From IMG/VR virus record IMGVR_UViG_3300044823_000292, positions 1-31,538 of that record: a stretch of 31,538 nt of DNA, one strand, 5' to 3'. Positions 1 to 24,616 of this stretch are shown here, in pieces. The DNA comes from a virus. The notes under the pieces were generated by a model. The model worked only from the letters and a program-made list of their open reading frames with translations. It did no database searches and was not told the DNA's origin. The first letter of the stretch is position 1. Every line of letters starts with the position of its first letter. Both the position numbers and the translations under genes were made by a program.

Positions 1-960
1 CGGAGTGATGAAGCTGCCCACCGCCTCAGAATAAAGATTTATCCAGTTGTAGCCATCGGCAGAGGTGTCAATGTAAATCGTCGTGCCGTCGTCCCTGAAT
101 CTTTCATACTGAAGCAACACAACATATTCGATCTGAGCATAATCGCCGGTATAGATTTGCGAGACGGCAGTTATGTGTGTCACCTGGCTCGCAATGACCG
201 CAAGAGCCTTGGTTCCATCGTAGATAATAAACAGCGGGTTTGATCCACCGCCGATATACTCCGCGATGCTGAAAGGCGCGGCGGGCGCGGCGATCAGAGC
301 CAGCACTGGCACCGACGGCGACGACGCTGCCGTCACGGATATTACTCCGCCATTGTCACTGATCGCAGCCGAACCCTGGTTCTGAATCGTGAATGCAGAC
401 AACGCCGGCGGCAGCGGCAGCGCCGACGGGCTGTAGAACCCAGTCCCACCACCTCCTCCGCCCGTTCCGCTGCCACTGCACGATCCGCAGTTGACCTCAA
501 CAACGCCCGGCGTGGCCACGGGCACATAGTTGTCCAGATTGCAGGTGGTCCCGCTAGTGGTAGCGCACCATGATGTCTGGCCGGTGCTGGCCGGCTGCAG
601 GCATGGCCACAAGTTGGCCACCTTCGGCGTTGCGCCCGAGGTCAGAAGTTGGGTGTTGAGACAGACGTTGGCGGGGCTGGTGAGCGCGGTATCCGGCACC
701 TGGACGCCCGACGCGAGCACGCCGGCCGTGACGGCAAAGCACGTCTGGTTCTGCGCGCCCTGCCCGCCGCCGCCAAACTGGAAGCCGATGGGTGCGCCAG
801 AGTTGTTGCTGGGCGTGATGCAGAGCCGCCCGGTGACCGGCTGCCCGGCTACGTTGTCCAGATGCGAAGCGGTGAGGGTGACCGTCTCGACCTGGCTGAA
901 TGCGGGAATGCAGAAGAGTAGCGCGGTGGCCCAGAGGGCGATGGAGCTGCGGAGTCTCAT
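1..960 (-). CDS. Tail-fibre-like protein with signal peptide, C-terminus cut by window edge
   Basis: The frame is open from an ATG at 960 to the first base of the window, giving 320 visible residues with no stop. The first ~22 residues look like a Sec signal peptide: basic MRLR start, hydrophobic core (ALWATALLFCIPAF), then SQ. The next ~110 residues are rich in T, G and N and include a GGGGQ segment and a VPDT...SPANVC stretch, which recalls the beta-rich N-terminal domains of phage tail fibres. A Gly/Ser linker follows near residue 165, then a domain with a lectin-like feel (around residues 220-320, with YIDTSADGYNW). It lies 38 bases downstream of the gpJ-like gene, where tail fibres are normally encoded. 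The ribosome site is poor: GGAG is only one base from the ATG. An in-frame GTG 36 bases upstream would bury the signal peptide. Role inferred: receptor binding or an exported surface protein. Confidence 0.75.
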   Translation of the reverse strand, partial: MRLRSSIALWATALLFCIPAFSQVETVTLTASHLDNVAGQPVTGRLCITPSNNSGAPIGFQFGGGGQGAQNQTCFAVTAGVLASGVQVPDTALTSPANVCLNTQLLTSGATPKVANLWPCLQPASTGQTSWCATTSGTTCNLDNYVPVATPGVVEVNCGSCSGSGTGGGGGGTGFYSPSALPLPPALSAFTIQNQGSAAISDNGGVISVTAASSPSVPVLALIAAPAAPFSIAEYIGGGSNPLFIIYDGTKALAVIASQVTHITAVSQIYTGDYAQIEYVVLLQYERFRDDGTTIYIDTSADGYNWINLYSEAVGSFITP

Positions 961-998
961 ACTCCAGTTATGCGGCAAGCCGCGCCATTCCCGCACCT

Positions 999-3900
999 TT
1001 AGTAGCCGCTGAGCGCCGGTTGCCCAGACCATTCGAATGAAGAATCGTAGCCGGTAACAGAGGTGATAATTCCGGTGGTCGCATGAATGGTCACGTTCTG
1101 ACTACTGGCGACCATGCCATCGTAACTGCCAAGCGCCTGTCCGACGCCAGAGAGCGTTCCCGTAGAAGTGTCGGGGTATCCCGTGCCTCCATCGATTACA
1201 TCGATCGAGGTTACATTCCAAAAGAAATCGCCGCCGCCGTCGTATCCAATCTCACAGTTGACCTGGAGGGTTGCCTGCGTGTTTCCGGGAGCGGCGGAGG
1301 TTGCTGTTGTCAGCGTGGTATTGAGCGCGAGATAGTTGCCGCCTGCCGAGCACAGCGCAAGGTCGCCGGGATTGGCGGAGGTGTCTGGGCTGGACGGCTC
1401 ACTCGTCGAGCAGCCCAGCATGAAGGTTCCCGGATCGAGAAACAGATAGAGGTAATAGAGTGTGTCGGGTGGCAGCGTGGTCCAGGTGATGCTGGATGCC
1501 GTGGTCTGAATCCAGGTGCCATCCGCAAGCTGCAGGCCCTGCGAGGGCGCCTCGTAGATCACCGTGACAGTCTCGGTGCCGGAGCTGTAGGTGTTCGACT
1601 TCAGATTGACGACGATAGTCTGGCCGGGCATGAGTCCGATGCTGTTGACCCGGAGCGATCCCTGCATATAGTCCCAGGCCGCCTGATTCACGCTCTCCAC
1701 CTGCGCGGAGCTGATCGCCTTGATCATATAGACGCCATTGCGCTGGCGCGTATCAGACCATGTGAGCCCGGTTCCGCTCCACATAACCGGCGCGTTGGTC
1801 CAGTTGTCGTTCGCCATGTTGGCGTTGTAGCGGATCTCGTAGCTGACAGCGTCGGTGGCGTCCAGCCACGTCAGCACCGTCTTGCCGCCGGCAAAGGCCC
1901 CGCTCAGCGCGGACACATCGCCCGGAGCGTTGGTGGAAGCCTGCACCGTGATGCTGGCCGTGGCCGGCGTCGGCCCCAGAATACCCTGCGCATCCATCCC
2001 GTACACGCTGACCAGATACGTCACGCCGATGGTTCCCGTGAAGGTGTAGCTGTTGCCGTTGGGGATGGTTGCCATCACCTGTAGCGGGCCGCCATTCGCG
2101 CTGATGGAGACTTGCGCGCCGACGGATGTGTTGACCAACTGCCATGCGGCATCGATCTGGCTGGAGTTGGGCGAGCCGGTGACCGTACCATTGGCGTAGA
2201 GTTCGGTGAGCGTGAGGTTGGCGATGGTGGCGTAGAAGTTCGGCGTCTCTACAATCTCGCCATAGACCGGCGTGGGGATGGTGTAGATGTCGGGCACATA
2301 CTCGACGGCACCGATCTGGAAGTTGAAGTCGCCCTGGCGCTTTATGGTTGTGACGCGGAAGAGTTTGGCGGGCTGCGAGCCGGCTGACTGCCCATAGGCC
2401 CAGGCGCTGTCCGGCGTGGGCGCGGCGCTGAAGCTGCCCGTGACGCCGAGCACTGCGCCATTGGTTGCCCCGAAGACGGTAGGCGTGAAGCTGCTGACCG
2501 CAAGCACGTCAATCACGTTCTGGTCGTAGAGTGATATCGTCTGCCCGGCGGCAAGCGTCGACGGCGCGGTGGAGAGCGTGAGCATCGAGCCCGAGACGCC
2601 CTCGACGATATACTCGGTGCCATCCGGCCCAATGGCCTTCAGGATGCGCGCGGAGCCCAACGCGGCGGAGCAGGTGACATACTGCCCGCTGACGCCGCCC
2701 GTGGCTATGGTGGCCGTGCCGCGCGAGACCACCGGATGCTGCACGCTGACAGTCCAGCCCGCGGCGGTGGCGAAGGTGAGGTCGTTGCGGTCGATGTTGA
2801 GCGCGGTGGTGGTGGACCCGGCAAGGATGCGGCCGCCCACGGCCCACTTCACCACGTCGGACTGGAAGGCAATCACCGACCCGCGCGCGCAGCAGCACGC
2901 CTCGATGGCCGCGGAGAACTGGATGGTGCGCAGGCACAGCTTGGTGCTGAGCAGATGGAAGTAGGCCCAGCGCCAAGCCTGGTCGCGGCTGGTGCATCCA
3001 ATCAGCCGGGTGCGGGTGATCTTTGGCTGAAGGCCGCTGTTGATGTCCGACGCGGTCATCACGGACACCGGAAGATCCATGCGGTAGTTGCGCGCGGCGT
3101 CGGCAAAGTCGCACTCAATCATAGTGCAGCGGTCGTCGAGTGAGAGCCATCCTTCGCTGAAGCTGTCTTTGATCACGTTGCCGACGGTGAAGAGCTGCAC
3201 TGGGTCCGCCGGCGCATCCAGAACAACGGTGTAGCGCGATCCGATCTGAATCACCTGCGCGCGGCTCATATTGCCGATGGTGGCCAACACCTGCCATGCA
3301 TCGCTGGATTGATCGAAGACGCCGGCAAAGATGAACTGGCGCACCGTGCTGCTGTCCTGGTTGGTCACCGTTTGATCGCAGAACCGCGCCCACGCCACAA
3401 ATGCCGGGACATCTATCTGGGCCGCCGGAACGGCCATGCCATAGAGCGGATTGGCAAGCACGTCGTAGGCGACAATGGCTGGATTGTCGTGCTCGAAGCC
3501 CACGAGCGCCGTGGGTAGCACAGTGTCCGCGCCAATGTCGTGCGTGATGGTGGCCTGGACCGTCAGGTTGGCTCCCGAGAGCTGCGAGGTGGCCAGCGCG
3601 GAGACGCCGATCAGAACCATGTTGGGATAGGCCAGATCGCTCAGGAAGACTTCGTTGATGTTCCAGAGCCAGATGTCGCTGGCGAAGTGGAAGTCGGCGG
3701 AATCGCCCCATACCCAGTCATGGGCGCCGTCCTGCCGGTAACCCATCTTTGTGACGCGCACATCGTACTGTCCCGGAGCGAGGCCGTAGATTTGCACTGT
3801 ATCGAAGAGCGCCGAGGTCTGGTCGATGGCTTGCAGTATCCGGTAGCCCTGATACCAACCCGTGACCAGCGACGGCGATAGGTCAGGATCGGTGCGCTGC

Positions 3901-5165
3901 CATTCGCCCGTGAAGGTAGTGGATACGGTTGATTCATTGCCGGCAACGTCGTATACATCGACGTTTTGTGTGCCAGTCCAGGGATCGCCGGGCGTGTGCG
4001 TGCCGCTCCAATCCACCGCATAGACGATACCGCTGCCTGCAAAGCGGTCCGTGGGCTGCACAACCCATCCGGGCCAAGTGATGTTGCCATGCGAGTCGGT
4101 GTTGCTGGCTGGGCCGATGTTGCGCGGGAAAAGCGGCGTCTTCCAGACGCCCGTGTTATGCAGCGCGTACTCAATCTTGTAGCTGATCCAGATGGGCACA
4201 TAGTTGCCATCGTGCGTGATGACATACGCGCCGCCGGGCAGCTTGCAGCAAATCTCCAGGCCGGTGACGTTTGTGCCCGTGCCGCTGACCACCACCGGGC
4301 CGTTGGCCACCAGCAACTGCGTCTCCTGCGGGAATCCGTTCACCGTCTTATTGAAGCCGTCGATGGGTCCCTGGCTGTTGCTTCCCAGCCGCGTGAAGTA
4401 GTTGATGCCCGTGTAGTTGGAGATGGGTTTGCCGTTCAGTAGAATGTCCGTGATGGAAGAGGCAGCCCCGAAGCCATAGCAGGCCAGCGCATAGATGTAT
4501 GCGTCGATACCCGCGTAGGTCACATAGCTTGAGACGATATTGCCACACCAGCCCATCTTGCCATAGGCCTTTGGCACGGGCACCCCGGGCTGCGCAAGAC
4601 CCTTTGGCCCAGTGGGATCGTAGGTGGCAGACCAGTTCGGCTGCCCCGGCTGATTCATGCTTGCCGCCCAGGACATCAGCAGGCTGCCACCGAGGCCAAT
4701 GGCGACGCCCATCATCGCAATCTGCGACGCCGAAAATGCGCCCAGCACACCCCACATTGCACCCCCGGCCAGCGCGCTCGCGCCCATCGTCATCACCGCC
4801 GAGGCCGCCATCAACAATATGCCGAAGCCTTCAATGGCACCCTTGGCCCCGCCGGGGACCGGGTAGAGCAGTACATCGTCGCCGGGATGGACGGGTGTGC
4901 GGTCGAGATCGGCGGCGACGATGGTTCCGCCATTCACACTCACCGCATACTGCGCGGCGTCGACGCCGGCGCGGGCGAGGATGGCCGCGACCGATTCATT
5001 CTCCAGCGGGTCGATGGTGGTCTCGGTACGCCCTTCCGGCCGGAAGGGGTTGCGAACCTCCAGAATGCGCACCGGGAGCAGCGCGAGGTCGTAGCTGGCC
5101 GGCGCGGCGGCCGCGGGCAGCTCGATCACGCTGCATCTGTCAATAACGCTCAGCCCTTTTTCCAA
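999..5165 (-). CDS. Tail tip / host specificity protein, gpJ-like, with gpI-like N-terminus
   Basis: This 1388-residue protein fits the central tail tip protein of lambda-like siphophages (gpJ), which closes the tail tube and contacts the receptor. Residues ~30-105 resemble a beta-grasp (MoaD/ThiS-like) fold: NPFRPEGRTE, ESVAAILARAG, SVNGG and HPGDDVLLYPVPGG. Two or three long hydrophobic Gly/Ala-rich segments follow (~110-170), as in lambda gpI, so gpI and gpJ functions seem fused. From ~180 the protein is gpJ-like, with PVPKAYGKMG and several fibronectin/Ig-like segments around 950-1130. The Gly/Ser-rich C-terminus is probably the receptor-contacting tip. The likely start is TTG at 5165, preceded by GAGGGG at about 8 bases; a GTG 12 codons on is the alternative. 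It overlaps the end of the NlpC/P60 gene by 16 bases, indicating coupled translation. No separate gpI gene is present. Confidence 0.88.
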   Translation of the reverse strand: MEKGLSVIDRCSVIELPAAAAPASYDLALLPVRILEVRNPFRPEGRTETTIDPLENESVAAILARAGVDAAQYAVSVNGGTIVAADLDRTPVHPGDDVLLYPVPGGAKGAIEGFGILLMAASAVMTMGASALAGGAMWGVLGAFSASQIAMMGVAIGLGGSLLMSWAASMNQPGQPNWSATYDPTGPKGLAQPGVPVPKAYGKMGWCGNIVSSYVTYAGIDAYIYALACYGFGAASSITDILLNGKPISNYTGINYFTRLGSNSQGPIDGFNKTVNGFPQETQLLVANGPVVVSGTGTNVTGLEICCKLPGGAYVITHDGNYVPIWISYKIEYALHNTGVWKTPLFPRNIGPASNTDSHGNITWPGWVVQPTDRFAGSGIVYAVDWSGTHTPGDPWTGTQNVDVYDVAGNESTVSTTFTGEWQRTDPDLSPSLVTGWYQGYRILQAIDQTSALFDTVQIYGLAPGQYDVRVTKMGYRQDGAHDWVWGDSADFHFASDIWLWNINEVFLSDLAYPNMVLIGVSALATSQLSGANLTVQATITHDIGADTVLPTALVGFEHDNPAIVAYDVLANPLYGMAVPAAQIDVPAFVAWARFCDQTVTNQDSSTVRQFIFAGVFDQSSDAWQVLATIGNMSRAQVIQIGSRYTVVLDAPADPVQLFTVGNVIKDSFSEGWLSLDDRCTMIECDFADAARNYRMDLPVSVMTASDINSGLQPKITRTRLIGCTSRDQAWRWAYFHLLSTKLCLRTIQFSAAIEACCCARGSVIAFQSDVVKWAVGGRILAGSTTTALNIDRNDLTFATAAGWTVSVQHPVVSRGTATIATGGVSGQYVTCSAALGSARILKAIGPDGTEYIVEGVSGSMLTLSTAPSTLAAGQTISLYDQNVIDVLAVSSFTPTVFGATNGAVLGVTGSFSAAPTPDSAWAYGQSAGSQPAKLFRVTTIKRQGDFNFQIGAVEYVPDIYTIPTPVYGEIVETPNFYATIANLTLTELYANGTVTGSPNSSQIDAAWQLVNTSVGAQVSISANGGPLQVMATIPNGNSYTFTGTIGVTYLVSVYGMDAQGILGPTPATASITVQASTNAPGDVSALSGAFAGGKTVLTWLDATDAVSYEIRYNANMANDNWTNAPVMWSGTGLTWSDTRQRNGVYMIKAISSAQVESVNQAAWDYMQGSLRVNSIGLMPGQTIVVNLKSNTYSSGTETVTVIYEAPSQGLQLADGTWIQTTASSITWTTLPPDTLYYLYLFLDPGTFMLGCSTSEPSSPDTSANPGDLALCSAGGNYLALNTTLTTATSAAPGNTQATLQVNCEIGYDGGGDFFWNVTSIDVIDGGTGYPDTSTGTLSGVGQALGSYDGMVASSQNVTIHATTGIITSVTGYDSSFEWSGQPALSGY

Positions 5166-5542
5166 CGGTAGAACCCCTCAACCCGCTTATGCCAGCGCGC
5201 GTCGTCGTATCGCTCGCGCACCACTCCGGCGACGCTCTCTGCATGAATCATCCATCCAGCGCCGCAGACCACGCCAACATGCCACAGCGGATCAGTGGAA
5301 CGCAGCAGAATGGCATCACCGGGCTGTGCATCGGCCTCCGCCACCGGCTCCCAGTTCAGCTTTGCGATGGATACCTGCGCGGCGTCGCTGTGGTGGTCCG
5401 GGACGGCGCGGCCCAGGCGGAACTGGATGGTCAGCAATAGACCCTCGCAGTCGTAGGCGTCCGGCCCGCGCGCGCCGGCGCGAAAGGGCTTGCCCAACAG
5501 ATCCAGCCACAGCGCGGAGGGGAGCGTTGACGTCGTTGGCAT
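5150..5542 (-). CDS. NlpC/P60 family tail tip peptidase, gpK-like
   Basis: This 130-residue protein matches NlpC/P60 cysteine peptidases of phage tail tips (C-terminal half of lambda gpK), which cut peptidoglycan peptide bridges during entry. The candidate catalytic Cys is C32 in YDCEGLL, with H88 in WHVGVV and H100 in MIHAES completing the usual Cys-His-His set. The family motif is normally DCSGLV, so a Glu follows the nucleophile here. The lambda protein also has an N-terminal JAMM metalloprotease domain, which is absent, so this is the short form. The start is the ATG at 5542, which overlaps the TAA of the upstream gpL-like gene by one base (TAATG). A longer open frame exists upstream but is Arg-rich and not protein-like. 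It lies between gpL-like and gpJ-like genes, the classical order. Confidence 0.88.
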   Translation of the reverse strand: MPTTSTLPSALWLDLLGKPFRAGARGPDAYDCEGLLLTIQFRLGRAVPDHHSDAAQVSIAKLNWEPVAEADAQPGDAILLRSTDPLWHVGVVCGAGWMIHAESVAGVVRERYDDARWHKRVEGFYRWKKG

Positions 5543-6207
5543 TAGTTTTGCGCCGCCACCGCGATGCCGTTGCTGCCGATACCCGGGAACGCTCCAAAGC
5601 GCATTGCATTGTCGTGCGCGATGCATCCGTCGGGGCCGTCGTAGGTTCCGTCGCAGTTGGTCAGAACGCCGGCGTATCCGCATTGCGCGCCCTTATAGTT
5701 GCTCACCCACATGCAGAACGTCGCGCGATATAGAAAGCGCGGAAACAGCATCCGCATGGGCGACGGAGCGGAGCAGGTGAATGTGACCTTGCTGGCCGTG
5801 GAGCTGCTGCGCATTACCGTGGTACTGAGCGCAAGGTCCGGCTCGCCCGCCGGGTGCGCCGTATTGTAGACGTATAGGTTGGCCGTGGCGCCCGCGAAGC
5901 CCGCATACTGCTCGATGACGCCCTGCAACAGCCGCAGCGTATTGGAGGCTGTCAGCGTGAGCGAGGGAAGCTGGCCGCCGCCCGGCTGCTCCACTGTCAG
6001 CTCAAAGTTGAATGGCTCATAGCTCTGGATGCCGTTGCCGTCGCCCGCGTCGAAGTTGACGGCGTCGATGTTGCGCGCCAGGCGGATGTGCTCGCCGTTC
6101 CATACGAGGTCCAGCAGCAAAATCCACGCATCGCCCGAGGCCAGCTTGGACTTGTCCTGCTGCGCGGCAAGCGATAGCACTGCAAGCGGGCTGAGCGCGG
6201 CGGGCAC
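5542..6207 (-). CDS. Minor tail protein L-like, probable Fe-S protein
   Basis: The 221-residue product resembles lambda minor tail protein gpL, a tail tip component. Its C-terminal part has four spaced cysteines (C165, C176, C185, C195) in the pattern RATFCMW...YKGAQCGYAG...NCDGT...GCIAHDN, followed by MRFGAFPGI, which is the hallmark ending. In lambda the equivalent cysteines bind a 4Fe-4S cluster. The N-terminal ~130 residues form the beta-rich DUF2163-like part. The start is GTG at 6207, preceded by GGAGG at six bases. The stop of the gpM-like gene ends two bases upstream. Metal binding here is inferred from the conserved cysteines. Confidence 0.88.
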   Translation of the reverse strand: MPAALSPLAVLSLAAQQDKSKLASGDAWILLLDLVWNGEHIRLARNIDAVNFDAGDGNGIQSYEPFNFELTVEQPGGGQLPSLTLTASNTLRLLQGVIEQYAGFAGATANLYVYNTAHPAGEPDLALSTTVMRSSSTASKVTFTCSAPSPMRMLFPRFLYRATFCMWVSNYKGAQCGYAGVLTNCDGTYDGPDGCIAHDNAMRFGAFPGIGSNGIAVAAQN

Positions 6208-6208
6208 G

Positions 6209-7141
6209 TTAGACCTCCGTCAGTTCAAAGTGCGCGCCGTAGAGCTTGACGCCGTTGCCAAAGCCGATGTCGGAGTACTCCGGCAGATTGCCAAAGCGCA
6301 CCGGCACGCCCAGTGCCAGCGATCCTGCCATGCGTCCGTAGGCGCTCAGCGGCGTCACCAGCGCGCAGGCCGCGCAGTCCCACACTGTTGTCTGGGTGCC
6401 ATCGAACGCAATGGCGCTCCCGGTGGAGTTCGCCAGTGTCATCACCAGTGCGACGGTGAAGGTCACGGCGTTGGCGGGCACGGTGAACTGCAGCCCATAG
6501 GCCTTCCAGCCGCCGCCAATGGCCGCCGCGGTGCCCAGCGTGGTGCTCAGGGTGTTGCCATTGATGTCCTGATAGGCCACCGACACCGCGTCGGTGCGCG
6601 TCATGCCGGATATTGCCGTGCCGGCCACCGTGCTGGCGCTGGCCGTGAAGCAATAGACCTCGCCGGGGTTGCAGGGGATTGGGATGTCACAGGCTAGCGT
6701 CGCAGTGGCGGAGCTGTGGGCCGCCAGATGCGAGGCGGAGATGGTGGCAAAACCGATGGCCTGCGCGCCGTCGAGCACGGTGGCGCCGGTGGTTGCAACG
6801 GCGATCGCAGGGGTCGGCGTAGCGTTCCATCCGGCCACCAGGTCAGCAGCGCTCAGCGGCGGCAGCTCGAAGCTGCCATTGGGCAGCAGGTTGGGATACA
6901 GGAAGCTGTTGCCGCCGCGCGCCGCAGTCACCATGGCGAACTGGTCCAGCGCGCGAATGTCTTCAGCGGCCAGGTTGCGGATGTTCTGTTTCCATGTCCG
7001 GCGGCCGCGGGTGAAGCGCGGACGCGTGGCCACATAGCCGCTCTCCGCCGGGTCGCGGATGGTGTCGTCTTCCAGCGACTGCGAAGAGTCCATCGACGGC
7101 TGGCGGGTAAGGCTGGGAAAGATGATCGGGAATGCGCCCAT
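6209..7141 (-). CDS. Minor tail protein, gpM-like N-terminus plus carbohydrate-binding-like domain
   Basis: The first ~80 residues (FPIIFPSLTRQPSMDSS ... RGRRTWKQNIRNL ... LDQFAMVTAARGG) match the small gpM-type minor tail proteins that bridge tail tube and tip. The protein is 310 residues, about three times the length of lambda gpM (109). From about residue 82 a second domain starts with NLLPNGSFELPP...AGWNAT, a typical opening of CBM4/9-like beta-sandwich carbohydrate-binding modules, running to about 230. The tail end (ALVTPLSAYGRMAGSLALGVPVRFGNLPEYSDIG) is probably again tail-specific, so the sugar-binding domain may be inserted into the tail protein. A sugar-binding role at the tail tip is an inference. 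The ATG at 7141 has only a G-rich stretch (GGGGGT) upstream, a weak site. It sits divergent to the plus-strand gpZ-like gene, 65 bases away. Confidence 0.75.
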   Translation of the reverse strand: MGAFPIIFPSLTRQPSMDSSQSLEDDTIRDPAESGYVATRPRFTRGRRTWKQNIRNLAAEDIRALDQFAMVTAARGGNSFLYPNLLPNGSFELPPLSAADLVAGWNATPTPAIAVATTGATVLDGAQAIGFATISASHLAAHSSATATLACDIPIPCNPGEVYCFTASASTVAGTAISGMTRTDAVSVAYQDINGNTLSTTLGTAAAIGGGWKAYGLQFTVPANAVTFTVALVMTLANSTGSAIAFDGTQTTVWDCAACALVTPLSAYGRMAGSLALGVPVRFGNLPEYSDIGFGNGVKLYGAHFELTEV

Positions 7142-7206
7142 TACCCCCAGAGTGCGGCAACCCCGGAAAACCGCGCCATTTACGGGCTTTGTGGGAGAAT
7201 GGGTGC

Positions 7207-7938
7207 ATGGGAACGATGCGCGTGACGGTGGATGTGTCGGCGGCCGTGGCTGGGCTCAACGAACTGCAAAAGAGTCAGATCCCGTTCGCGCTCGCCAAGA
7301 CGCTCACCAACTGTGCCAAGGCGGGGCAGACGAAGGTGCAGGAAGGGTTGGGCGGCAAGTTTGTCCTGCGCAACAGCTTCACGCGCCAGGGCATCCGCAT
7401 CAAGCCGGCGGATAAGCGCGGCCAGACGATCGAGGCCGACGTGCATACCGACACCGCCAACCGCAGCACCGGCGCGCCAGACTACCTGCTACCGCAAGAC
7501 ACCGGTGCGGAGAAGGTGCCGCACAATGGCCACCGGTACATTGCCGTGCCCACGCGCTACTTCCGCGGCAAGTTTGGCAATGGCCCCATCCGGGCGGAGC
7601 TTCGCCCGCGCAATCTGCTGGGCGCCATCGCTGGCCGGTATGACGTGATGCGCCGGATGAAGGGGTCGAAGATGAAGCAGCTCGCGCTGGTGAATCAGCG
7701 CGTGGTGCGGGGATACGTCTTCTTTGTGCAGGACCTCAAGGACGGCCATAAGGCCATCATGGGCCGCGATGCGCATGGCCACGATGCAGAGCCGTTCTAC
7801 TTCCTCATCAACGAGGCACGCATCAAGCCCCGCCTGGGCATGGAGAAGACGGTGCGGCAGGCAGTCGAAGAGGACTTCCCGCGGCTGTGGGAGCAGACCT
7901 GGAAGGACATCATGGCCAAAGGCTTGATTATCAAATAA
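7207..7938 (+). CDS. Putative tail completion protein, gpZ/HK97 gp10-like, on the opposite strand
   Basis: The 243-residue protein opens with MRVTVDVSAAVAGLNELQKS, then FALAKTLTNCAKAGQTKVQEGL, and ends with an amphipathic KTVRQAVEEDFPRLWEQTW helix. This layout (short strand, long helix with N-terminal Ala, basic middle, C-terminal helix) is that of lambda gpZ and HK97 gp10-type tail completion proteins, although it is longer than lambda gpZ (192). It is one of only two convincing plus-strand genes in the window and lies between the tape measure and gpM-like genes rather than beside the tail terminator. The ATG at 7207 has GGGAG 12 bases upstream; ATG at 7216 is an alternative. Assignment is by overall pattern, not by catalytic residues, so confidence is moderate. 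Confidence 0.6.
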   Translation: MGTMRVTVDVSAAVAGLNELQKSQIPFALAKTLTNCAKAGQTKVQEGLGGKFVLRNSFTRQGIRIKPADKRGQTIEADVHTDTANRSTGAPDYLLPQDTGAEKVPHNGHRYIAVPTRYFRGKFGNGPIRAELRPRNLLGAIAGRYDVMRRMKGSKMKQLALVNQRVVRGYVFFVQDLKDGHKAIMGRDAHGHDAEPFYFLINEARIKPRLGMEKTVRQAVEEDFPRLWEQTWKDIMAKGLIIK

Positions 7939-7961
7939 TTATTGCAAGACAAAAATAGTGC

Positions 7962-7989: not shown

Positions 7990-8010
7990 GGTCGCACCCT
8001 GGAGGTTGCC

Positions 8011-8478
8011 GTGCCCAGCAATACTCGGAAAGTTGGAAGGTTCTGCGGTCGAAACTGGCCCTGGATAGTTGTGTTTTCCGTGTTTTGGATCGTGCTGATT
8101 GTCATAGCAAACCAAAACGTGAGCACTCCCGCTCAAGCCACTGCGGCGGCATCTACTCCTGCAGCCGCCGCAACAGTCGCACCGCAATCCACAGCCGAAC
8201 AGCATGGCGTAGCCATGAGTTGCCGGTCTGACCTCAGCAAACTGCGCGACGCCTACTCGGAGATGGGTATCGACGACCATTCACTCTTTGTGACTGTCAC
8301 TCCCGCATTTATGGATACTTCTTTCAAAAATCGGGAGATATTCAACTGGCTCGCCCGGTGCTACTACACGGACGGTCGCATGGATGGCAGCATCGAAACC
8401 GTGATTTATCAAGACCCAAACACAAACCAGACGGTCGGTACCTGGTCTTCCTACTCCGGGTTATCTTTCGACCGTTAG
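8011..8478 (+). CDS. Single-pass membrane protein of unknown function (candidate moron)
   Basis: This 155-residue protein has a short basic N-terminus and one strong transmembrane helix at residues ~17-33 (WPWIVVFSVFWIVLIVI). An Ala/Pro/Thr-rich linker follows (~38-68), then a small domain of ~85 residues with two cysteines (CRSDLSKLRDAY, ARCYYTDG). The topology suggests N-in with a periplasmic C-terminal domain. GTG at 8011 has GGAGG at five bases, and the gene has its own promoter while the tail operon around it runs the other way. Its TAG overlaps the stop of the tape measure gene tail-to-tail. Those are the marks of a moron, a gene expressed from the prophage for the host's or phage's benefit, for example superinfection exclusion. 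I do not recognise the family. Confidence 0.8.
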   Translation: MPSNTRKVGRFCGRNWPWIVVFSVFWIVLIVIANQNVSTPAQATAAASTPAAAATVAPQSTAEQHGVAMSCRSDLSKLRDAYSEMGIDDHSLFVTVTPAFMDTSFKNREIFNWLARCYYTDGRMDGSIETVIYQDPNTNQTVGTWSSYSGLSFDR

Positions 8479-10580: not shown

Positions 10581-10967
10581 CGTTGCGCTCCTTCTTCAAT
10601 CTTGCCTTGCGCGCGGCAAAGAACGCACTTGCGGCCTCGTGCGCGCTGCCAAACTCTACCGGCGCCCCCCGCTGCTTGCGCGGCTTTAGCCCCAGCAGAT
10701 CTCCGGGAGTCAGCACTGGATGGTCCTTTGGAGTATATGGCAGCAGAAAGAGGTGGCCGAGCCACGCGGCCTCGCGGTGCAGGTTCTCGCGCTCGCGCGC
10801 CACGCGCTCATGGTATCCGGTGAGCATCAACACCAGCTCGCTGTATTGCAGCCGGTAGAACTCTGTTGGCGCGATGGCCATCTCTCCGCAGACGATGCGG
10901 AAGGCGTCCTCCCAGGTGAATGGCTTGGCCTTGCGTTTGCGCCCCGCGCCGCGCCGGCGGGGGCTTA
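10573..10967 (-). CDS. Tail assembly chaperone, frameshift extension (gpT-like)
   Basis: This segment is read in the -1 frame relative to the gpG-like gene. It carries KPFTWEDAFRIVCGEMAIAPTEFYRLQYSEL, a pattern of the second tail assembly chaperone domain. The frame contains an ATG at 10881, but the conserved-looking TWEDAFRIVCGE segment lies upstream of it with no start codon, and the frame stays open back into the end of the gpG-like gene. It is therefore most probably made only as a gpG-T fusion by -1 ribosomal frameshifting, as in lambda. The fusion would be about 251 residues. It ends eight bases inside the start of the tape measure gene, its expected client. Confidence 0.8.
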
Positions 10968-11327
10968 GGCTTCCCCCTTGGGGTCGTCTCCGTAGTACTG
11001 ATTGAGCGCGTCACCCATCTGCAGCACGGCCTGGGTGATCCACTTGCGCCGCGCCAGCAGCTTGCCCACGTCGTCGACGGTCAACGTCTCGCCGTGCGCG
11101 CGGGCGTCATCCTGCAGGGCGGCCCACAGATACACGCGCAGGTTTTCCAGGTTGACATCGAGCGACCGGCTGACTTCGCCCGTCTTCTCGTCCTTATGCT
11201 CGCCAACCGTCTCCCACAGCGCGCAGTCGCGGCCACCCGCCCCGCGAATCAGGATCTCAGTATTGAGGTTGAAGACAAGCTGGCGCCGGCGGTCGAAGTC
11301 AACATAGATGGGCGTCTTCTGGATCAT
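10965..11327 (-). CDS. Tail assembly chaperone (gpG-like)
   Basis: A 120-residue protein starting MIQKTPIYVDFDRRRQLVFNLNTEI, with LWAALQDDAR and TVDDVGKLL segments, in the slot between major tail protein and tape measure. Proteins here coat the tape measure during tail assembly. The pattern VDFDRRRQLVFNLNTE resembles first-frame chaperones of many siphophages. The ATG at 11327 has AAAGGT upstream. Larger open frames extend upstream in this frame but run through the antisense of the hairpin and major tail gene and are not credible. The last codons, GAC CCC AAG GGG GAA GCC TAA, contain the slippery G run. Confidence 0.8.
   Translation of the reverse strand: MIQKTPIYVDFDRRRQLVFNLNTEILIRGAGGRDCALWETVGEHKDEKTGEVSRSLDVNLENLRVYLWAALQDDARAHGETLTVDDVGKLLARRKWITQAVLQMGDALNQYYGDDPKGEA
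10973..10977 (-). promoter_or_regulatory. Candidate -1 frameshift slip site
   Basis: On the minus strand the codons AAG GGG GAA contain a run of five G just four codons before the gpG-like stop. A tRNA-Gly on GGG can re-pair perfectly with GGG one base back, after which reading continues through the conserved gpT-like frame. It is not a canonical XXXYYYZ heptamer, so P-site slippage is the likelier mechanism. A stem may form in the GC-rich stretch just downstream. Confidence 0.6.
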
Positions 11328-11359
11328 GGCGGGCACCTTTCGGCACGTTCGGCGTGGAA

Positions 11360-11394
11360 GAGGGGTGGCGCCCATGCCCGTAGCGCCACCCCTC
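11360..11394 (-). terminator. Strong hairpin downstream of the major tail gene
   Basis: Perfect 12-base arms (11360-11371 and 11383-11394, GAGGGGTGGCGC and complement) enclose an 11-base loop. It lies in the 143-base gap between the major tail gene and the chaperone gene. There is no U-tract on the minus strand, so it is not a classical intrinsic terminator; it could be a partial attenuator or an mRNA 3'-end stabiliser that favours major tail protein over the tape measure and tip genes. Confidence 0.65.
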
Positions 11395-11450
11395 CGTTTG
11401 CTGCGATTCGCTGTCTGGTCCAGAAGCCGCTCTTGAGCAGCCGACCAAGT

Positions 11451-11486
11451 CGCTACTGCGCGGCATCTCGTTACTGCGCGGCGACC
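11451..11486 (-). repeat. 18-bp imperfect tandem duplication across the major tail stop codon
   Basis: Two adjacent 18-base units share 13 of the first 14 bases. On the minus strand each contains GCCGCGCAG followed by a stop (TAA, then TAG), so the end of the major tail gene and its stop were duplicated. Confidence 0.6.
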
Positions 11487-12202
11487 GAGAACGCGCCCGC
11501 GCCCTTCAGTGTGATCGACACGCCCTGCAGGTCGGTGTTCTTGCCGTCCCACTTGAAGTCGCCGAGCACCACCGGGCCAATGTACGAATCGACGCCGGAG
11601 CCGCTGGACTGTGTCGGGAACATCGTGATGGTGAGAGGCGTCTTGTTGAGGATGGCCGCGAGCAACGCCTCCTGCGATGCATCGCCGGCGATGTAGTCGA
11701 GCTTGGCGGTCCCGCTGAAGTCGAGCAGCCCATACATCCGCTGCTTCCATCCGCCGCTGCCGTGGTCCGTGGAGTCGAGCTCCTCTGCCGTGAATCCGCC
11801 GTCCACTTCCTTGAGCCCGGCCACGATCACCAGCGCCCCGCCGGCCGGCGGCACATAGCCAAGCTGCGCCTTGTATCCCTGCAGCTTGCAGGGCACCAGC
11901 GAGACGGCCGTGACCGTGACGGTGCCCGTTCCGGTGGCGGTATTGAAGGCGGCCTCACCGGCCACGTCGGGGGTATAGGTCACGGTGAGTGTGTCGGTGC
12001 CCACCACAAGCGAGGACCCAGGCACGACAATGGTCGCCGAGCCGGACGCCAGCACAGCCGCGGACGACGCATACGTTCCACTGGTGATCTTCACCGAGCC
12101 GGTAGGCGTCCCCGTGCTGGTCAGTACAATGGCCACGGAGGTTGCCTGGTTGGCGGCAATGGTGGAGGGTGTGGCTGTGACAGCAATGGTCGGGGTATAC
12201 AT
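11471..12202 (-). CDS. Major tail (tube) protein with N-terminal Ig-like domain
   Basis: The 243-residue protein has two parts. Residues ~1-100 (TPTIAVTATPSTIAANQATSV ... TPTGSVKITSG ... LVVGTDTLTVTYTPD) form a bacterial Ig-like (Big-type) domain. Residues ~100-243 contain KLQGYKAQLGYVPPAGG, DGGFTAEELDSTDHGSGGWKQ and ILNKTPLTITMFP...LGDFKWDGKNTDLQGVSITLKGAG, matching tube proteins of the lambda gpV type (TIDVTDHDS-like segment and C-terminal LKGSG ending). The Ig domain is at the N-terminus, whereas lambda gpV carries its Ig domain at the C-terminus. Such domains decorate the tail surface and may bind carbohydrates. ATG at 12202 is preceded by AAGGGAGA at about eight bases, a strong site fitting high expression. 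A hairpin follows the gene. Confidence 0.85.
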   Translation of the reverse strand: MYTPTIAVTATPSTIAANQATSVAIVLTSTGTPTGSVKITSGTYASSAAVLASGSATIVVPGSSLVVGTDTLTVTYTPDVAGEAAFNTATGTGTVTVTAVSLVPCKLQGYKAQLGYVPPAGGALVIVAGLKEVDGGFTAEELDSTDHGSGGWKQRMYGLLDFSGTAKLDYIAGDASQEALLAAILNKTPLTITMFPTQSSGSGVDSYIGPVVLGDFKWDGKNTDLQGVSITLKGAGAFSVAAQ

Positions 12203-12225
12203 GGTCGAATTCTCCCTTACGGCGG

Positions 12226-12678
12226 TTAGCTCGGGTACGTTTTGTTGATGCTGGGATCGTCCCTGCCTACTTCCACATTCACGCAAACGGTAATATCCAC
12301 GCAAACTTGGTCACTTGCGCTCTTGTCGAGGTAGCCCATCTCGACCTCTTCCACCCGCGCATCGCTGACAATTTCGCCCAGCGTGGGGTCGCGGCGGATG
12401 CACTGCCAGGCCCACAACACCAGCGGGTCCACGGCAACATCGACCTCGCTGGTGGCGGCGGTGTATGCGCGGACGATGATCTTGGCCTCGGTGGAGGCGC
12501 TGTCGTTGGCGCAGGCGTAGGTGATGCTGATTCGGGTGGGGAAGAGGTTCAGCGCGGACTCGGCGACGCCCACCGCCTCGAAGCGCGCGCGCCAGGTGAC
12601 GGCGGGCGAGCCGGTGGCGTTGAGCGCGGCCAGCAGATTGCTGACCGCTTGCGTCCAGATTGTCATGCGTCCCGCCAC
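12226..12678 (-). CDS. Tail terminator protein, gpU-like
   Basis: This ~150-residue alpha/beta protein sits directly before the major tail gene, the standard place for the tail terminator that stops tube polymerisation and joins tail to head. It starts with an amphipathic IWTQAVSNLLAALNAT helix and ends with a strand and VEVGRDDPSINKTYPS, a plausible terminator-like C-terminus. The frame opens at GTG (12678), directly after the stop of the SSB gene, with GGAG six bases before it; ATG at 12666 is a credible alternative. Assignment depends on size, layout and position. Confidence 0.7.
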   Translation of the reverse strand: MAGRMTIWTQAVSNLLAALNATGSPAVTWRARFEAVGVAESALNLFPTRISITYACANDSASTEAKIIVRAYTAATSEVDVAVDPLVLWAWQCIRRDPTLGEIVSDARVEEVEMGYLDKSASDQVCVDITVCVNVEVGRDDPSINKTYPS

Positions 12679-13044
12679 TTACGTCTCCGTCGGCACCGGC
12701 GTCGGGCCCGTGCCATTTCCATTCAACAACACCAGCTCCTCGGCCACGATATTGGTGCGCCAGCGCTTGGTCTGAGATTCGTCCTCATACGTCGTTGTGC
12801 GCAAGCGTCCGGAGATGTAGACCTGCGAGCCTTTGCGCAGAAACTTTTCAGAGATCTCCGCCAGCCGGCCGAAGAGAACAACGAGGTGCCACTCCGTGTG
12901 ATCGACCCACTTTTCGCCCTGCTTCTTCTTCTCGTTGGTCGCCAGCGTCAGGTTCGCCACCAGCGTTCCGCTCGCCAGCTTCCTCATCTCCGGCGACTTT
13001 CCCACGTTGCCGAGCAACGCTACATGGTTGACTCCCCTGCTCAT
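12679..13044 (-). CDS. ssb: Single-stranded DNA-binding protein
   Basis: A 121-residue SSB of the bacterial OB-fold type: NHVALLGNVGKSPEMRKLASGTLVANLTLATN, then WHLVVLFGRLAEISEKFLRKGSQVYISGRLRT and a closing RTNIVAEELVLL strand. These are the characteristic family blocks. The C-terminal tail is very short (NGNGTGPTPVPTET) and lacks the acidic DDDIPF-like tip that recruits host repair and replication proteins, as in some phage SSBs. It would coat ssDNA during phage replication or recombination. ATG at 13044 has GAGGGGG upstream. It is embedded among head-tail genes, between the neck protein and the tail terminator, not with the replication genes 12-18 kb away. Confidence 0.95.
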   Translation of the reverse strand: MSRGVNHVALLGNVGKSPEMRKLASGTLVANLTLATNEKKKQGEKWVDHTEWHLVVLFGRLAEISEKFLRKGSQVYISGRLRTTTYEDESQTKRWRTNIVAEELVLLNGNGTGPTPVPTET

Positions 13045-13106
13045 ACGTCACCCCCTCGGCCCTTGGCAGCATTCGGTTGGTCAATCGGACCGCATCGCTC
13101 ATTCGG

Positions 13107-13406
13107 CTAACTCGCTGGTTTCAGATACATCTCGGTGATTTGCATATCGCGCTGCTCTGGCAGTTCTTTTACTGTGTAGGCAACCCCGCCGACCGTAATG
13201 GCATCCATTGGTTTTGGAACCGAACTGAATGCATTGTATGGAACGCGCAGGATAACTGTGCTGCGCTCGAATCCACCGGGCCCCTCGCCATGCATGAACA
13301 TGTCGGTGGTGGTGTCTAGGATTCCGTTGGCAGTCTGACCTTCATAGACAACGGCGACGCCGAAGTCGGCGGTAAACACTCCGAGATCGGCGTCGCCGAA
13401 GGCCAT
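13107..13406 (-). CDS. Head-tail connector / neck protein, gpFII-like
   Basis: A 99-residue, beta-rich protein (MAFGDADLGVFTADFG...DAITVGGVAYTVKELPEQ...EMYLKPA) located between capsid and tail terminator genes. Small proteins in this slot with a D.l...g..y.V strand near the C-terminus are neck proteins like lambda gpFII that receive the tail. ATG at 13406 has AAGGGAG nine bases upstream, overlapping the stop of the preceding 58-aa gene. Assignment is by size, layout and position. Confidence 0.65.
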   Translation of the reverse strand: MAFGDADLGVFTADFGVAVVYEGQTANGILDTTTDMFMHGEGPGGFERSTVILRVPYNAFSSVPKPMDAITVGGVAYTVKELPEQRDMQITEMYLKPAS

Positions 13407-13420
13407 GGCAGGCGGCTCCC

Positions 13421-13597
13421 TTACTTCTTTGCGCCGGGCGCGATGTATTCCACAACGCGGTTGAGGTGTTTGTTGTACTTGAAATCGTGCGGAGAGAGTT
13501 CAACGATGTCGCCGGCGGCGTGCTCTTCACCGTCAAACATCATGCTGATCAGCAGCTTCGCCCTGATGGGTGCAGTCTTGGTATTCAGTCCAAGCAT
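13421..13597 (-). CDS. Small 58-aa protein of the head module
   Basis: A short gene starting MLGLNTKTAPIRAKLLISMM and ending VVEYIAPGAKK. The centre reads DGEEHAAGDIVELSPHDFKYN, a pattern (charged strand, H.aGDiveL, helix, C-terminal strand) seen in very small phage head-module proteins of unknown role (DUF7210-like). ATG at 13597 has GAGGA upstream at about nine bases and its TAA leads into the ribosome site of the neck gene. It lies between the capsid hairpin and the neck gene. Function unknown; a decoration, head completion or chaperone role is possible. Confidence 0.75.
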   Translation of the reverse strand: MLGLNTKTAPIRAKLLISMMFDGEEHAAGDIVELSPHDFKYNKHLNRVVEYIAPGAKK

Positions 13598-13628
13598 GGA
13601 TTTTTTCCTCGTGATGTGGGATTTGCGT

Positions 13629-13665
13629 GGCGGCCCCGATCTCGGTTGTGAGAATCAGGGCCGCC
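13629..13665 (-). terminator. Hairpin downstream of the major capsid gene
   Basis: Arms GGCGGCCC (13629-13636) and GGGCCGCC (13658-13665) pair perfectly, with a further TCTC/GAGA pairing inside the loop. It lies in the 95-base gap just after the capsid stop codon. There is no U-tract, so it is a candidate attenuator or RNA-stabilising element, not a proven terminator. Confidence 0.6.
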
Positions 13666-13692
13666 CGTTCATCTGTGCGTTTTGTGGTTGGA

Positions 13693-15075
13693 TTAGTTGA
13701 CCGCTGCCTTTAGGGTGGCGGCGAAGGCGGCGATGTGGCGGATTGCGATGTCGTGCAGCGACCGCATGGTGAGCACGATGGCTCCCGATCCGGCCTGAGT
13801 GTACGGATCGTAGACTACCTCGACAGCGCCCCAGTCCGCGAAGACCATCTGGCTGAAGTCGCCGAAGATTGCCGCATGCAGGCAAGAGCTGGCGCCACCG
13901 GAAGACAGGTTCTGCGGGAGTTGGTTGGTGACGCCGGCCTTATAGCCCAGCGGCCCCTCTTCCAGCCCGCTCGGATCGTGCGAGCCTTCCTTCCAGATGG
14001 GCTCGGAGATGAGCGTTCCGGTGCTGTTGGTGAACTTCGGCGTGCCCTTCAGCAAGCCGCGAACGCCCGGGGTGAACATCCATCCCGAGGTGGCGGCATC
14101 CGCATCTGCGGCGGCGACCGTGGTCTCGAAGCTGATGAGGTCCAGGTACGTCAGCGGGTTGCCGGTGGAGGTCAACGCCGTGCCGGTGGGGGTGATGGTG
14201 GCCAGGCTGCCGGTATGCAGAATGCCGGTGGGCGATCCACTGCCGTTTCCGTTGATGGAGGCGTAGTCGAGCGCGAGGTTGCGGATCTTGTTGAAGTCCG
14301 CCCGCATCAGCGCTTCCACATCGGGCGAGGTGCTTGCCAGCAACTCGATGTCGATGGCCGACTGCGTGGTTCCGCGGTGCGGCGTCACAGACACGAAGTC
14401 CATGGTGAGATCGGAGGCCGTGACCGACTGGCCTTCTGTCGTCCACTGCCAGGTGCCCGCTCCGCTCTGCCGCGGCAGGCGAACGACGCCCTGCAGCGCT
14501 CCCAGCGTGCGTGCGCCCAGCGCAATGGCGCGCGGACGGTGCCGGAGCAGCTCGATGACTTCGGGATGCGTGATCGTCTCCACCGCTGCCGACTCGGAGG
14601 TGATTGCGAGCTGGCCGCTGCCGGAGTTGATTGCCTGCGTGCCCAGCGCGCGGGTCAGGGCGTTCAGCGGGACGAAGACGCCCGGCGTGGCCAGCCCGAG
14701 CCGCTTGGCGATCGCGGTGGACATCTCGCGCTCGTATCCGGCCTCGTGCTTGCCGTCGAACGTGCCCGGCTTCGCCTGGTTGACGACGGAACGCAGCAGG
14801 TTGATCAGCGAATAGCCCTTCTGCTCGCGCCGCGAGCCTTCGGAGAAGGTTGCGTCGCCGGCGGTGCCGACCTTGCTGACATCGTTGGCCGCAATGATCT
14901 TGCGGGTCACGACATCCTTGAAGGCGTCTGCCGTGGTGTTTTCGGCGATGGCCTTCTGGGCCTCGTCGATGTTGACGTACTTGCGGAAGTCCTTGTCGGT
15001 CGCAACGGCCATAATCTCTGTCCGTCGCGCGAGTTCAAGCTCGTTCGCGTTGGGTGTTACAGCCGTTTCGGCCAT
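13693..15075 (-). CDS. Major capsid protein from internal start (nested, same frame)
   Basis: Within the protease-capsid frame, ATG at 15075 (MAETAVTPNANEL) is preceded by AAAGGAG with seven bases spacing, one of the best ribosome sites in the window. Starting here gives a 460-residue protein with a delta-domain-like helical N-terminus and the whole HK97 fold, the normal size for an HK97-type capsid precursor. The likely outcome is abundant free capsid protein plus a minority of protease-capsid fusion. The sequence shows the site; use of both starts is an inference. Confidence 0.75.
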   Translation of the reverse strand: MAETAVTPNANELELARRTEIMAVATDKDFRKYVNIDEAQKAIAENTTADAFKDVVTRKIIAANDVSKVGTAGDATFSEGSRREQKGYSLINLLRSVVNQAKPGTFDGKHEAGYEREMSTAIAKRLGLATPGVFVPLNALTRALGTQAINSGSGQLAITSESAAVETITHPEVIELLRHRPRAIALGARTLGALQGVVRLPRQSGAGTWQWTTEGQSVTASDLTMDFVSVTPHRGTTQSAIDIELLASTSPDVEALMRADFNKIRNLALDYASINGNGSGSPTGILHTGSLATITPTGTALTSTGNPLTYLDLISFETTVAAADADAATSGWMFTPGVRGLLKGTPKFTNSTGTLISEPIWKEGSHDPSGLEEGPLGYKAGVTNQLPQNLSSGGASSCLHAAIFGDFSQMVFADWGAVEVVYDPYTQAGSGAIVLTMRSLHDIAIRHIAAFAATLKAAVN

Positions 15076-15720
15076 GGTTCGCTCCTTTAGTTGTGCTGCG
15101 GTTGGCTCGCTGATAACCTCAGCGACCGGTGCGGGGCTTGCGCTCCGCGTGGCTACGGTCTCAATCTCGACCGGAAACTCTGTGTCGGCATTGCGCCCCA
15201 CACCCACTGTGGGATCGGCCGGAACGGTGACCAGGGACGCATCGAACGGCTCCCAGTCGCGGACCTCGCAGCGCGCATCGTCCTGTTCGTCGCCGTCTTC
15301 GTCGGTGGTGGCTGTGCGCACCATCTTGTGGACCCGATAGCCGCCAGATGCGGCGTTCAGAATGCCCGCGTCATAGTCCGCGCGCTTCTCCTGCGCCAGC
15401 GGCGACGGCCCAAACGGCCCCTCAACGCGCAGCACGCCGTCCTTCAGCCTGAAGCTGTCCACCTTGCCGATGTGTTTGTCCGGATCGTGATTGAAGAGCA
15501 GCGGCACCATGCCATCGGCCAGGCGCTGGGTGCGCACGTTTTCTTTGCCGTGCATCAGCACCTCGTCGCCAAACCAGCGCTTCACCGGCTCCTCGCTGGT
15601 GAGCGCAAAGCTGAAGCGGCCGGGATCGTCGCCGCTGAGGCGCTTTCCCTCTTCCGGCTTGTCCACCTTGGCCGCGCGGTACTGGATCGGCAGCTTATTG
15701 GGAATCGCAATCTTGCTCAT
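13693..15720 (-). CDS. Fused prohead protease and HK97-type major capsid protein
   Basis: One 675-residue frame carries two proteins that are usually separate. Residues ~10-175 are an HK97-type (U35) prohead protease: LLFNHDP with candidate His78, LNAASGGYRV with candidate Ser125, and EPFDASLVTVPADP at 157-170. After an Ala/Pro/Glu linker (180-215) comes an HK97-fold major capsid protein: a charged delta-like helical region, then SESAAVETITHPEV, PRQSGAGTWQWTTEGQSVTASDLT, TPHRGTTQSAIDIELLASTSPD and the C-terminal DFSQMVFADWGAVEVVYDPYTQAGSGAIVLTMRSLHDIAIRH. The protease start at ATG 15720 has a poor ribosome site (ACAGAAG). A much stronger internal site precedes an in-frame ATG at 15075. Protease cleavage during maturation would release the capsid shell protein. 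Confidence 0.9.
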   Translation of the reverse strand: MSKIAIPNKLPIQYRAAKVDKPEEGKRLSGDDPGRFSFALTSEEPVKRWFGDEVLMHGKENVRTQRLADGMVPLLFNHDPDKHIGKVDSFRLKDGVLRVEGPFGPSPLAQEKRADYDAGILNAASGGYRVHKMVRTATTDEDGDEQDDARCEVRDWEPFDASLVTVPADPTVGVGRNADTEFPVEIETVATRSASPAPVAEVISEPTAAQLKERTMAETAVTPNANELELARRTEIMAVATDKDFRKYVNIDEAQKAIAENTTADAFKDVVTRKIIAANDVSKVGTAGDATFSEGSRREQKGYSLINLLRSVVNQAKPGTFDGKHEAGYEREMSTAIAKRLGLATPGVFVPLNALTRALGTQAINSGSGQLAITSESAAVETITHPEVIELLRHRPRAIALGARTLGALQGVVRLPRQSGAGTWQWTTEGQSVTASDLTMDFVSVTPHRGTTQSAIDIELLASTSPDVEALMRADFNKIRNLALDYASINGNGSGSPTGILHTGSLATITPTGTALTSTGNPLTYLDLISFETTVAAADADAATSGWMFTPGVRGLLKGTPKFTNSTGTLISEPIWKEGSHDPSGLEEGPLGYKAGVTNQLPQNLSSGGASSCLHAAIFGDFSQMVFADWGAVEVVYDPYTQAGSGAIVLTMRSLHDIAIRHIAAFAATLKAAVN

Positions 15721-15738
15721 ACTTCTGTTGTGCGCCGC

Positions 15739-15771
15739 AAAAAGAAAACCCCGCAAATTTCGCGGGGTTTT
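15739..15771 (-). terminator. Intrinsic terminator between decoration-like and protease-capsid genes
   Basis: Perfect 10-base arms (AAAACCCCGC at 15745-15754, GCGGGGTTTT at 15762-15771) with a 7-base loop. On the minus strand it is followed by CTTTTT, so it has the full form of a rho-independent terminator for the late transcript. It would stop transcription between portal-endolysin-decoration genes and the capsid gene unless there is antitermination or read-through. Confidence 0.8.
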
Positions 15772-15795
15772 CAGTTGGCAAACAGCAGCAGCGAG

Positions 15796-16377
15796 TTAGA
15801 ACGTCCAGCCGCAGTGTGATCCGGGCTGCACCACCAGGGAGTCCAGTGCGTTACTGGTCAAGCCCTCCCATGTCAGCACAACCGGAGATGCCCCGGTGAC
15901 GAGGACAAAGTCGAAGGCGGCATAGTAGTTGGTGGCGGCCGCTCCCGGCGTTGCCGCGGCGCCCACAATCGTTCCTGTCGTCGCTGTCGTGGTGGTATAG
16001 GCCACCGTGTTTGAGCCCGCCGCAGCGGTGTTGATCTTGGAGAGGATGTAGAGGCCGGTCGGAGCGTTCGACATCGCAGTGCCGAAGCTGACGGTGGCCG
16101 CGGCCGTGGCCTGCTGCCAGATCAGGTCGCAGGTGCCGTGGATGGTCTGACCGGCGGGGATGGAAGGCATCACCAGTCCGGTGCTGGCAAAGCCGGTGGA
16201 GGCAGTGCTGAACTGCGTGGTGAGCGCCTGCGTCACCCCGAAGGCCGGGGTGGCCGCGAAAAAAACCGGGAGGCCCGTGCTGGTGTAGCCGATGGGTGAA
16301 CCTGCTTGAGCGTTGAGGGCCGGTGCGGCGGTGAGTGCCGCGAATGCCAGCGCCAGAAAAGCAATCATTTTTCGCAT
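15796..16377 (-). CDS. Secreted decoration-like protein of unknown function
   Basis: The 193-residue product starts with a clear Sec signal peptide (MRKMIAFLALAFAALTAAPALNAQA, predicted cut after ALNA). The mature part is Ala/Thr/Gly-rich and probably all-beta: GLPVFFAATPAFGVTQALTTQF, GLVMPSIPAGQTIHGTCDLIWQQ, and an ending with DSLVVQPGSHCGWTF. Two cysteines could form a disulfide outside the cytoplasm. It is in the slot before the capsid gene where head decoration or scaffold proteins may lie, yet a signal peptide would send it out of the cytoplasm where heads form. ATG at 16377 has AAGGAAAAACGCA before it. The terminator at 15739 follows. Family not recognised. Confidence 0.75.
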   Translation of the reverse strand: MRKMIAFLALAFAALTAAPALNAQAGSPIGYTSTGLPVFFAATPAFGVTQALTTQFSTASTGFASTGLVMPSIPAGQTIHGTCDLIWQQATAAATVSFGTAMSNAPTGLYILSKINTAAAGSNTVAYTTTTATTGTIVGAAATPGAAATNYYAAFDFVLVTGASPVVLTWEGLTSNALDSLVVQPGSHCGWTF

Positions 16378-24610: not shown

Positions 24611-24616
24611 TTTTTT

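Follow-up and report, generated by a model that had tools for sequence, protein, structure and literature searches.

The linear DNA analysed here, called the window below, is the complete IMG/VR virus record IMGVR_UViG_3300044823_000292 of 31,538 base pairs (bp), and its late region contains two genes, SP1 and SP2, whose predicted products begin with Sec signal peptides. The late genes lie on the minus strand in a lambda-like order: small and large terminase, joining protein, portal, lysozyme, SP2, a protease-capsid fusion, head-tail attachment protein, single-stranded DNA-binding protein (SSB), tail genes, tape measure, the tail tip protein J and, as the last gene, SP1. SP1 (1-960, ATG at 960) codes for a fibre-like protein and runs off the record at its left edge; the window holds its 5' 320 codons, and the 3' part lies beyond. 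It starts 38 nucleotides (nt) after the gene for J, the tail tip or central tail fibre protein (999-5165; phrog_31, E 5.5e-107). SP2 (15796-16377) codes for a small beta-rich protein with two cysteines. It is the last gene before the protease-major capsid fusion (13693-15756, probable ATG at 15721; PF05065, E 3.2e-30; PF04586, E 2.8e-4; phrog_617, E 1.8e-91), from which it is separated by an intrinsic terminator with a 13-bp stem and a T tail (15744-15772). The capsid gene forms the right border of a cargo slot whose left border is the portal gene (16981-18681). The latter was named by its place beside the terminase and capsid genes, and homologues of 62-66% identity occur at the equivalent place in closer relatives.

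The original prediction that both genes start with Sec signals was borne out. Signal peptides were called by our own heuristic based on the von Heijne rules rather than by SignalP. In SP1 the signal comprises residues 1-22 (895-960), with the sequence MRLRSS-IALWATALLFCIPA-FS/QVE (the slash marks the cleavage site), and the call was backed by alignment with 17 relatives. In SP2 it comprises residues 1-25 (16303-16377), with the sequence MRK-MIAFLALAFAALTAA-PALNAQA/GSP. Both have a positive n-region, an uncharged hydrophobic core and a small residue at position -1, as the classical rules demand. With scores of 11.8 for SP1 and 14.2 for SP2, the next best being 7.3, they are the only convincing Sec signals among the 29 genes of the late strand. 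When homologues of ordinary late proteins in related phages served as controls, 5 of 144 passed a generous threshold, mostly through internal hydrophobic stretches.

Relatives of the phage were found through the capsid gene, and they hold SP1-like genes between portal and capsid. An alignment of these genes led to 20 loci and a second alignment to 43. In total, the N-terminal module of SP1 (N-module) recurs in 47 viral contigs besides the window, with 35 non-redundant copies. The signal peptide was recognised in all 35 by reading and in 34 by the automatic test, the sole failure (L006) being due to a long n-region. An alanine, glycine or serine occupies position -1 in 35 of 35 and is nearly always followed by a conserved QTVTV start. 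Pairwise identity within the family is 29% in the signal region, which is still hydrophobic, versus 52% over the first eight mature residues. Given the scores, the controls and this conservation, the signals of SP1 and SP2 are more than chance, and chance signal peptides were rejected as an explanation. Lipoproteins were rejected too, because a lipobox-like site was found in only one of the 35 members (L037) and not in SP1, which has the cleavage site AFS/Q.

Members of the family share the signal peptide and about 125 residues with four invariant cysteines, which in SP1 correspond to the N-module (residues 25-150; 511-888) and to cysteines 100, 120, 132 and 140. The C-terminal parts vary and include collagen-like repeats, beta-helix-like repeats, a short tip domain, an esterase and tail-fibre modules. 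Thus, L067 ends in a GDSL esterase (PF13472, E 1.6e-16), L051 in a tail fiber module (phrog_5073, E 1.3e-52), L030 in a minor tail module (phrog_4120, E 1e-36) and L033 in a virion structural module (phrog_23837, E 7e-18), and in L049 a signal-peptide gene adjoining the family member has a LamG domain (PF13385, E 3.8e-22). Repeats in L030 and L033 resemble YadA by visual impression only, and L033 has no Pfam match. The best PHROG match of SP1 itself, whose 3' end is absent, is phrog_19068 (E 0.002; function not annotated there); a full-length relative in the same slot has 816 amino acids (aa; L023/L020). Pfam gave no match for SP1 or SP2, and PHROG none for SP2. Among cultured phages no match was obtained for SP1, SP2, the N-module or two of the C-terminal parts, and one C-terminal part shares a motif of about 44 residues with T4-like tail fibres. 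A search of 84,980 bacterial and archaeal genomes, at pattern-level sensitivity, yielded no relatives of SP1, and capture of a host gene was discarded on these grounds. In the open-access subset of the literature we found no description of such exported fibre proteins.

The strongest evidence of this analysis is the parity of the cysteines. Proteins that fold outside the cytoplasm should have paired cysteines, and the number of cysteines in the mature protein, which ranges from 2 to 22, is even in 40 of 41 complete signal-peptide proteins (27 of 28 clusters at 60% identity, 18 of 19 at 40%). Ordinary late proteins of the same phages that contain any cysteine have an even number in 32 cases and an odd one in 63. 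The Fisher p of about 1e-9 and 6e-7 for this difference should be read as an indication, because the controls are not fully independent. Cysteine density is 21.9 per 1000 aa in the signal-peptide proteins versus 8.0 in the ordinary late proteins. When all open reading frames (ORFs) with a strong signal peptide were picked blind to cysteines, 41 were even and 6 odd; the latter comprise three dubious-looking ORFs, two from one small unrelated family, and L035. A signal-peptide protein of a different family, encoded after the tape measure (L011:9118-9552, L063:19937-20347), has a single mature cysteine and breaks the even rule. The even parity argues for disulfides and for real export. Judged from the genes, export of these proteins is well supported by the conserved signal peptides and the cysteine parity, in agreement with what had been predicted.

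Exported fibres of this phage group occupy two fixed slots, directly after J or between portal and capsid. Homologues were recovered at the loci of both window genes, with SP1-like genes after J (and others between portal and capsid) and an SP2 relative before the capsid gene. An exported fibre follows J in the window and in L022, L020/L023, L024, L080 and L086. In six other relatives (L079, L081-L085) a tail-fibre gene without a signal peptide takes this place, and no contig has both kinds there. In G002, J is extended to 1,786 aa. At the portal-capsid slot, a 4-nt overlap (ATGA or GTGA) joins the start codon to the stop codon of the portal gene in 9 of 12 cases, and the gene is therefore translated with the portal. 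The cassette in this slot contains four signal-peptide genes in L009 and also holds the relative of SP2 or a third signal-peptide family in L067, L061, L028 and L027. Hence, the "pair" of secreted proteins noted originally was too narrow a description, as SP1 belongs to a large family and between one and four such genes occur in the portal-capsid cassettes of relatives. The assumption that they ride in the late operon proved sound, considering the short distance between J and SP1 and the overlaps with the portal stop. Autonomous morons with their own promoter were also considered and are not supported by these overlaps or by a promoter scan, which gave nothing above chance; SP2 does have a terminator behind it, and a consistent terminator at this site was not seen in the relatives. 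The module also appears in other phage types, after baseplate wedge and tail fibre genes (L033) or after a head-tail adaptor (L068). Other cargo of the portal-capsid slot includes a DNA methyltransferase-like gene in relatives (L061:11355-12038, L062, L046) and, in the window, a lysozyme/endolysin gene immediately upstream of SP2 (16456-16980; phrog_90, E 5.1e-41); in the relative L019 a lysozyme-like gene lies in the lysis region after J.

An AlphaFold2 model based on 23 sequences predicts that residues 25-150 of SP1 form a beta-sandwich, mostly at a predicted local distance difference test (pLDDT) score of 80-96. In VIA-align, the top match of this N-module was the N-terminal 105 residues of a tail fibre of cyanophage A-1(L) (Z 10.6, root-mean-square deviation 2.3, 97 aligned residues, 18% identity), followed by a Bxb1 tail-tip protein (8.0) and, lower and among unrelated folds, an XM1 neck protein (6.6). 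Its length of 280 residues leads us to take the matched chain for gp33, the short tail fibre. Residues 2-110 of gp33 form a ring around the baseplate wedges and anchor the fibre, and the N-terminus of the long fibre is wedge-anchored too (PMC10966104). The predicted fold of the N-module therefore suggests a role in docking to the virion. Foldseek retrieved no significant match for SP1 in the PDB and one viral protein at E 6.6e-4. For SP2, the low-confidence model (pLDDT 53) matches TNF-like lectins and the Sf6 tail-needle knob near Z 8, and residues 47-193 (15799-16239) thus look like a jelly-roll knob. Its sole close relative (L067:11784-12341, 51% identity) has a signal peptide and both cysteines and also lies just before the capsid gene. 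L002 was rejected as a further relative, as it has a chance match of 16 residues. The label "decoration-like" given to SP2 is unproven; the gene adjoins the capsid gene, and no family match was obtained. The third small signal-peptide family (L061:10908-11339, L028, L027, L066; 143-149 aa, four cysteines) has, immediately behind the cleavage site, a motif in common with SP2 (tPIaYdtlGhPiyg / SPIGYTSTGLPVFF).

Among known systems, tail fibres such as gp33 are similar in combining a conserved N-module with variable C-terminal binding modules and in being encoded after tail-tip or baseplate genes, as are SP1 and its relatives after J or, in L033, after baseplate wedge and tail fibre genes. The similarity extends to the predicted fold of the N-module and to the PHROG tail-fibre matches of the relatives, where the C-terminal modules of L051, L030 and L033 are homologous to known fibres. 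The name "tail-fibre-like" for SP1 was well chosen. In contrast to gp33, which has neither a signal peptide nor a cysteine, the SP1 family has both, and its signals and even cysteine numbers depart from the cytoplasmic folding without a signal peptide that is customary, though not strictly defining, for fibres. Lom, which phage lambda encodes between J and its side tail fibre gene (PMC12309495), has in common with SP1 a Sec signal peptide and a place just after J. However, Lom is an outer-membrane beta-barrel expressed in lysogens, whereas the SP1 family has four invariant cysteines and fibre-type tails, and the N-module is predicted to be a compact beta-sandwich rather than a transmembrane barrel (the C-terminal half of SP1 being unmodelled). 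Cor and Llp are small exported superinfection-exclusion lipoproteins encoded near tail genes, and they differ from the SP1 family, which has no lipobox at the end of the signal peptide in 34 of 35 members. Finally, virion-type depolymerases such as tailspike esterases and lyases resemble the family in the GDSL esterase module of L067. To our knowledge, tailspikes as a rule lack signal peptides, unlike the SP1-family proteins.

Read from the genes alone, that is, from the signal peptides, the operon position, the apparent pairing of cysteines, the fibre-type modules and the slot shared with a signal-less fibre gene, SP1 and SP2 may be phage fibres that are exported, acquire disulfide bonds while folding in the periplasm and join virions when the cell lyses, a reading to which we give about an even chance. 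Translation of the late operon, in which relatives couple the exported fibre gene to the portal, would be followed by Sec export of the fibre and removal of its signal by signal peptidase. The fibre would then fold and oxidise in the periplasm, and capsids and tails would meanwhile be assembled in the cytoplasm. Lysis would mix the two compartments, and the N-module would dock the fibre on the virion, where it would serve as a side fibre or as a receptor-binding protein; SP2 might be a small knob of the same kind, supplied from the portal-capsid cassette. Periplasmic folding, docking at lysis and receptor binding are what we infer from the features named above. The T4 fibres can attach to finished particles outside cells, as known from classical in vitro complementation, and late docking is therefore physically plausible. 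A diderm host is assumed, as the record has no host assignment; the repeat-derived peptide CHPERPERS (L006, L011) and the soil origin suggest a putative member of the Acidobacteriota. Of the options raised initially, we favour surface proteins that join virions outside the cytoplasm or during lysis, on account of their place in a fibre slot, their fibre-type modules and the predicted fold of the N-module, with docking on the virion as an inferred step. No specific support emerged for receptor masking.

Several observations weigh against exported fibres that dock at lysis. The similarity between the N-module and the A-1(L) tail fibre is one of fold alone, with undetectable sequence similarity, and the C-terminal half of SP1, a gene cut by the record edge, was unmodelled or disordered in AlphaFold2. 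For SP2, a single relative is available and the model is poor. Fibre genes do not classically lie between portal and capsid, and the gap contains no cargo in L003, L004, L005, L008 and L010, where the cargo is therefore dispensable. Moreover, several phages carry a signal-less fibre after J plus an exported one between portal and capsid, so that the protein from the latter slot is not simply the tail fibre. The main rival explanation, possible if rather doubtful in our judgement, is that export and disulfide bonding do take place but the proteins never become part of the virion and act free in the periplasm or after lysis, for example as lectins or enzymes that loosen the polysaccharide around the dying cell, stop progeny from re-binding to debris, or block receptors. 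The evidence for export also fits this explanation, the GDSL esterase and LamG lectin modules would suit such functions, and the tandem cassettes of up to four genes (L009) and their absence in close relatives look like accessory cargo. Some phages, besides, keep a separate signal-less fibre. Against a free effector speak the post-J slot, where genuine tail-fibre genes alternate with the exported ones, the translational coupling to the portal, and the combination, as in virion fibres, of a variable tail with a conserved N-module. The predicted fold of this module resembles a virion-anchored fibre end.

If the signal were left uncleaved, its hydrophobic stretch could anchor the protein in the inner membrane, the fibre extending into the periplasm, and the membrane-held protein might serve as an exclusion or lysis factor. 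Sec-exported or membrane phage proteins encoded beside tail genes do exist (Lom of lambda, PMC12309495). This scenario is nevertheless unlikely, because every member has a small residue (alanine, glycine or serine) at -1, nearly always ahead of the QTVTV start, a lipobox-like site is found in one of 35 members, and the N-module is predicted to be a compact soluble beta-sandwich. Cryptic signals, with proteins that never leave the cytoplasm and enter the particle in the normal way as decoration or tail components, would agree with the location of the genes in the structural operon. Some hydrophobic N-termini are indeed not exported. Yet, the signal peptides are conserved across unrelated C-terminal architectures, cysteine numbers are even throughout the mature proteins, and the five complete signal-less fibres from the post-J slot lack this parity (5, 6, 9, 5 and 3 cysteines; one of five even), which makes cryptic signals highly improbable.

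Other features of the window concern its remaining genes. Two plus-strand genes (7132-7938 and 8011-8478) lie within the minus-strand tail operon. The product of one resembles the minor tail protein gpZ (PF06763, E 1.8e-4, which is below cutoff), and that of the other has a transmembrane segment at its N-terminus. In most relatives, too, the gpZ-like gene runs antisense at this place, between the tape measure gene and the tail gene that follows (43-72% identity). The SSB gene (12679-13044, minus strand) is located inside the structural operon, with the head-tail attachment gene on one side and the tail terminator gene on the other, a position kept in many relatives (48-63% identity). The product of 23671-24651 (minus strand) is built mostly from tandem copies of an almost identical repeat (GCTGLKEVSLPAATxAxLS) that recalls the BspA type, and that of 28719-29921 (minus strand) looks, by eye only, like a sliding clamp for DNA polymerase encoded by the phage.

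The cytoplasm is taken to be the place where the fibres of tailed phages fold, and standard assembly models do not expect exported ones. We regard as slightly short of evenly balanced the broader proposal of a two-compartment assembly, according to which a group of soil phages would make capsids and tails in the cytoplasm and Sec-exported, disulfide-stabilised fibres in the periplasm, the two being joined only at lysis. A widespread family of exported, disulfide-bonded fibre proteins among uncultivated soil phages would imply a second compartment of virion assembly or, alternatively, a new class of phage-secreted lectins and enzymes. Predictions of fibres or receptor-binding proteins that discard proteins with signal peptides would miss such fibres, and the family may offer a source of disulfide-hardened binding proteins.

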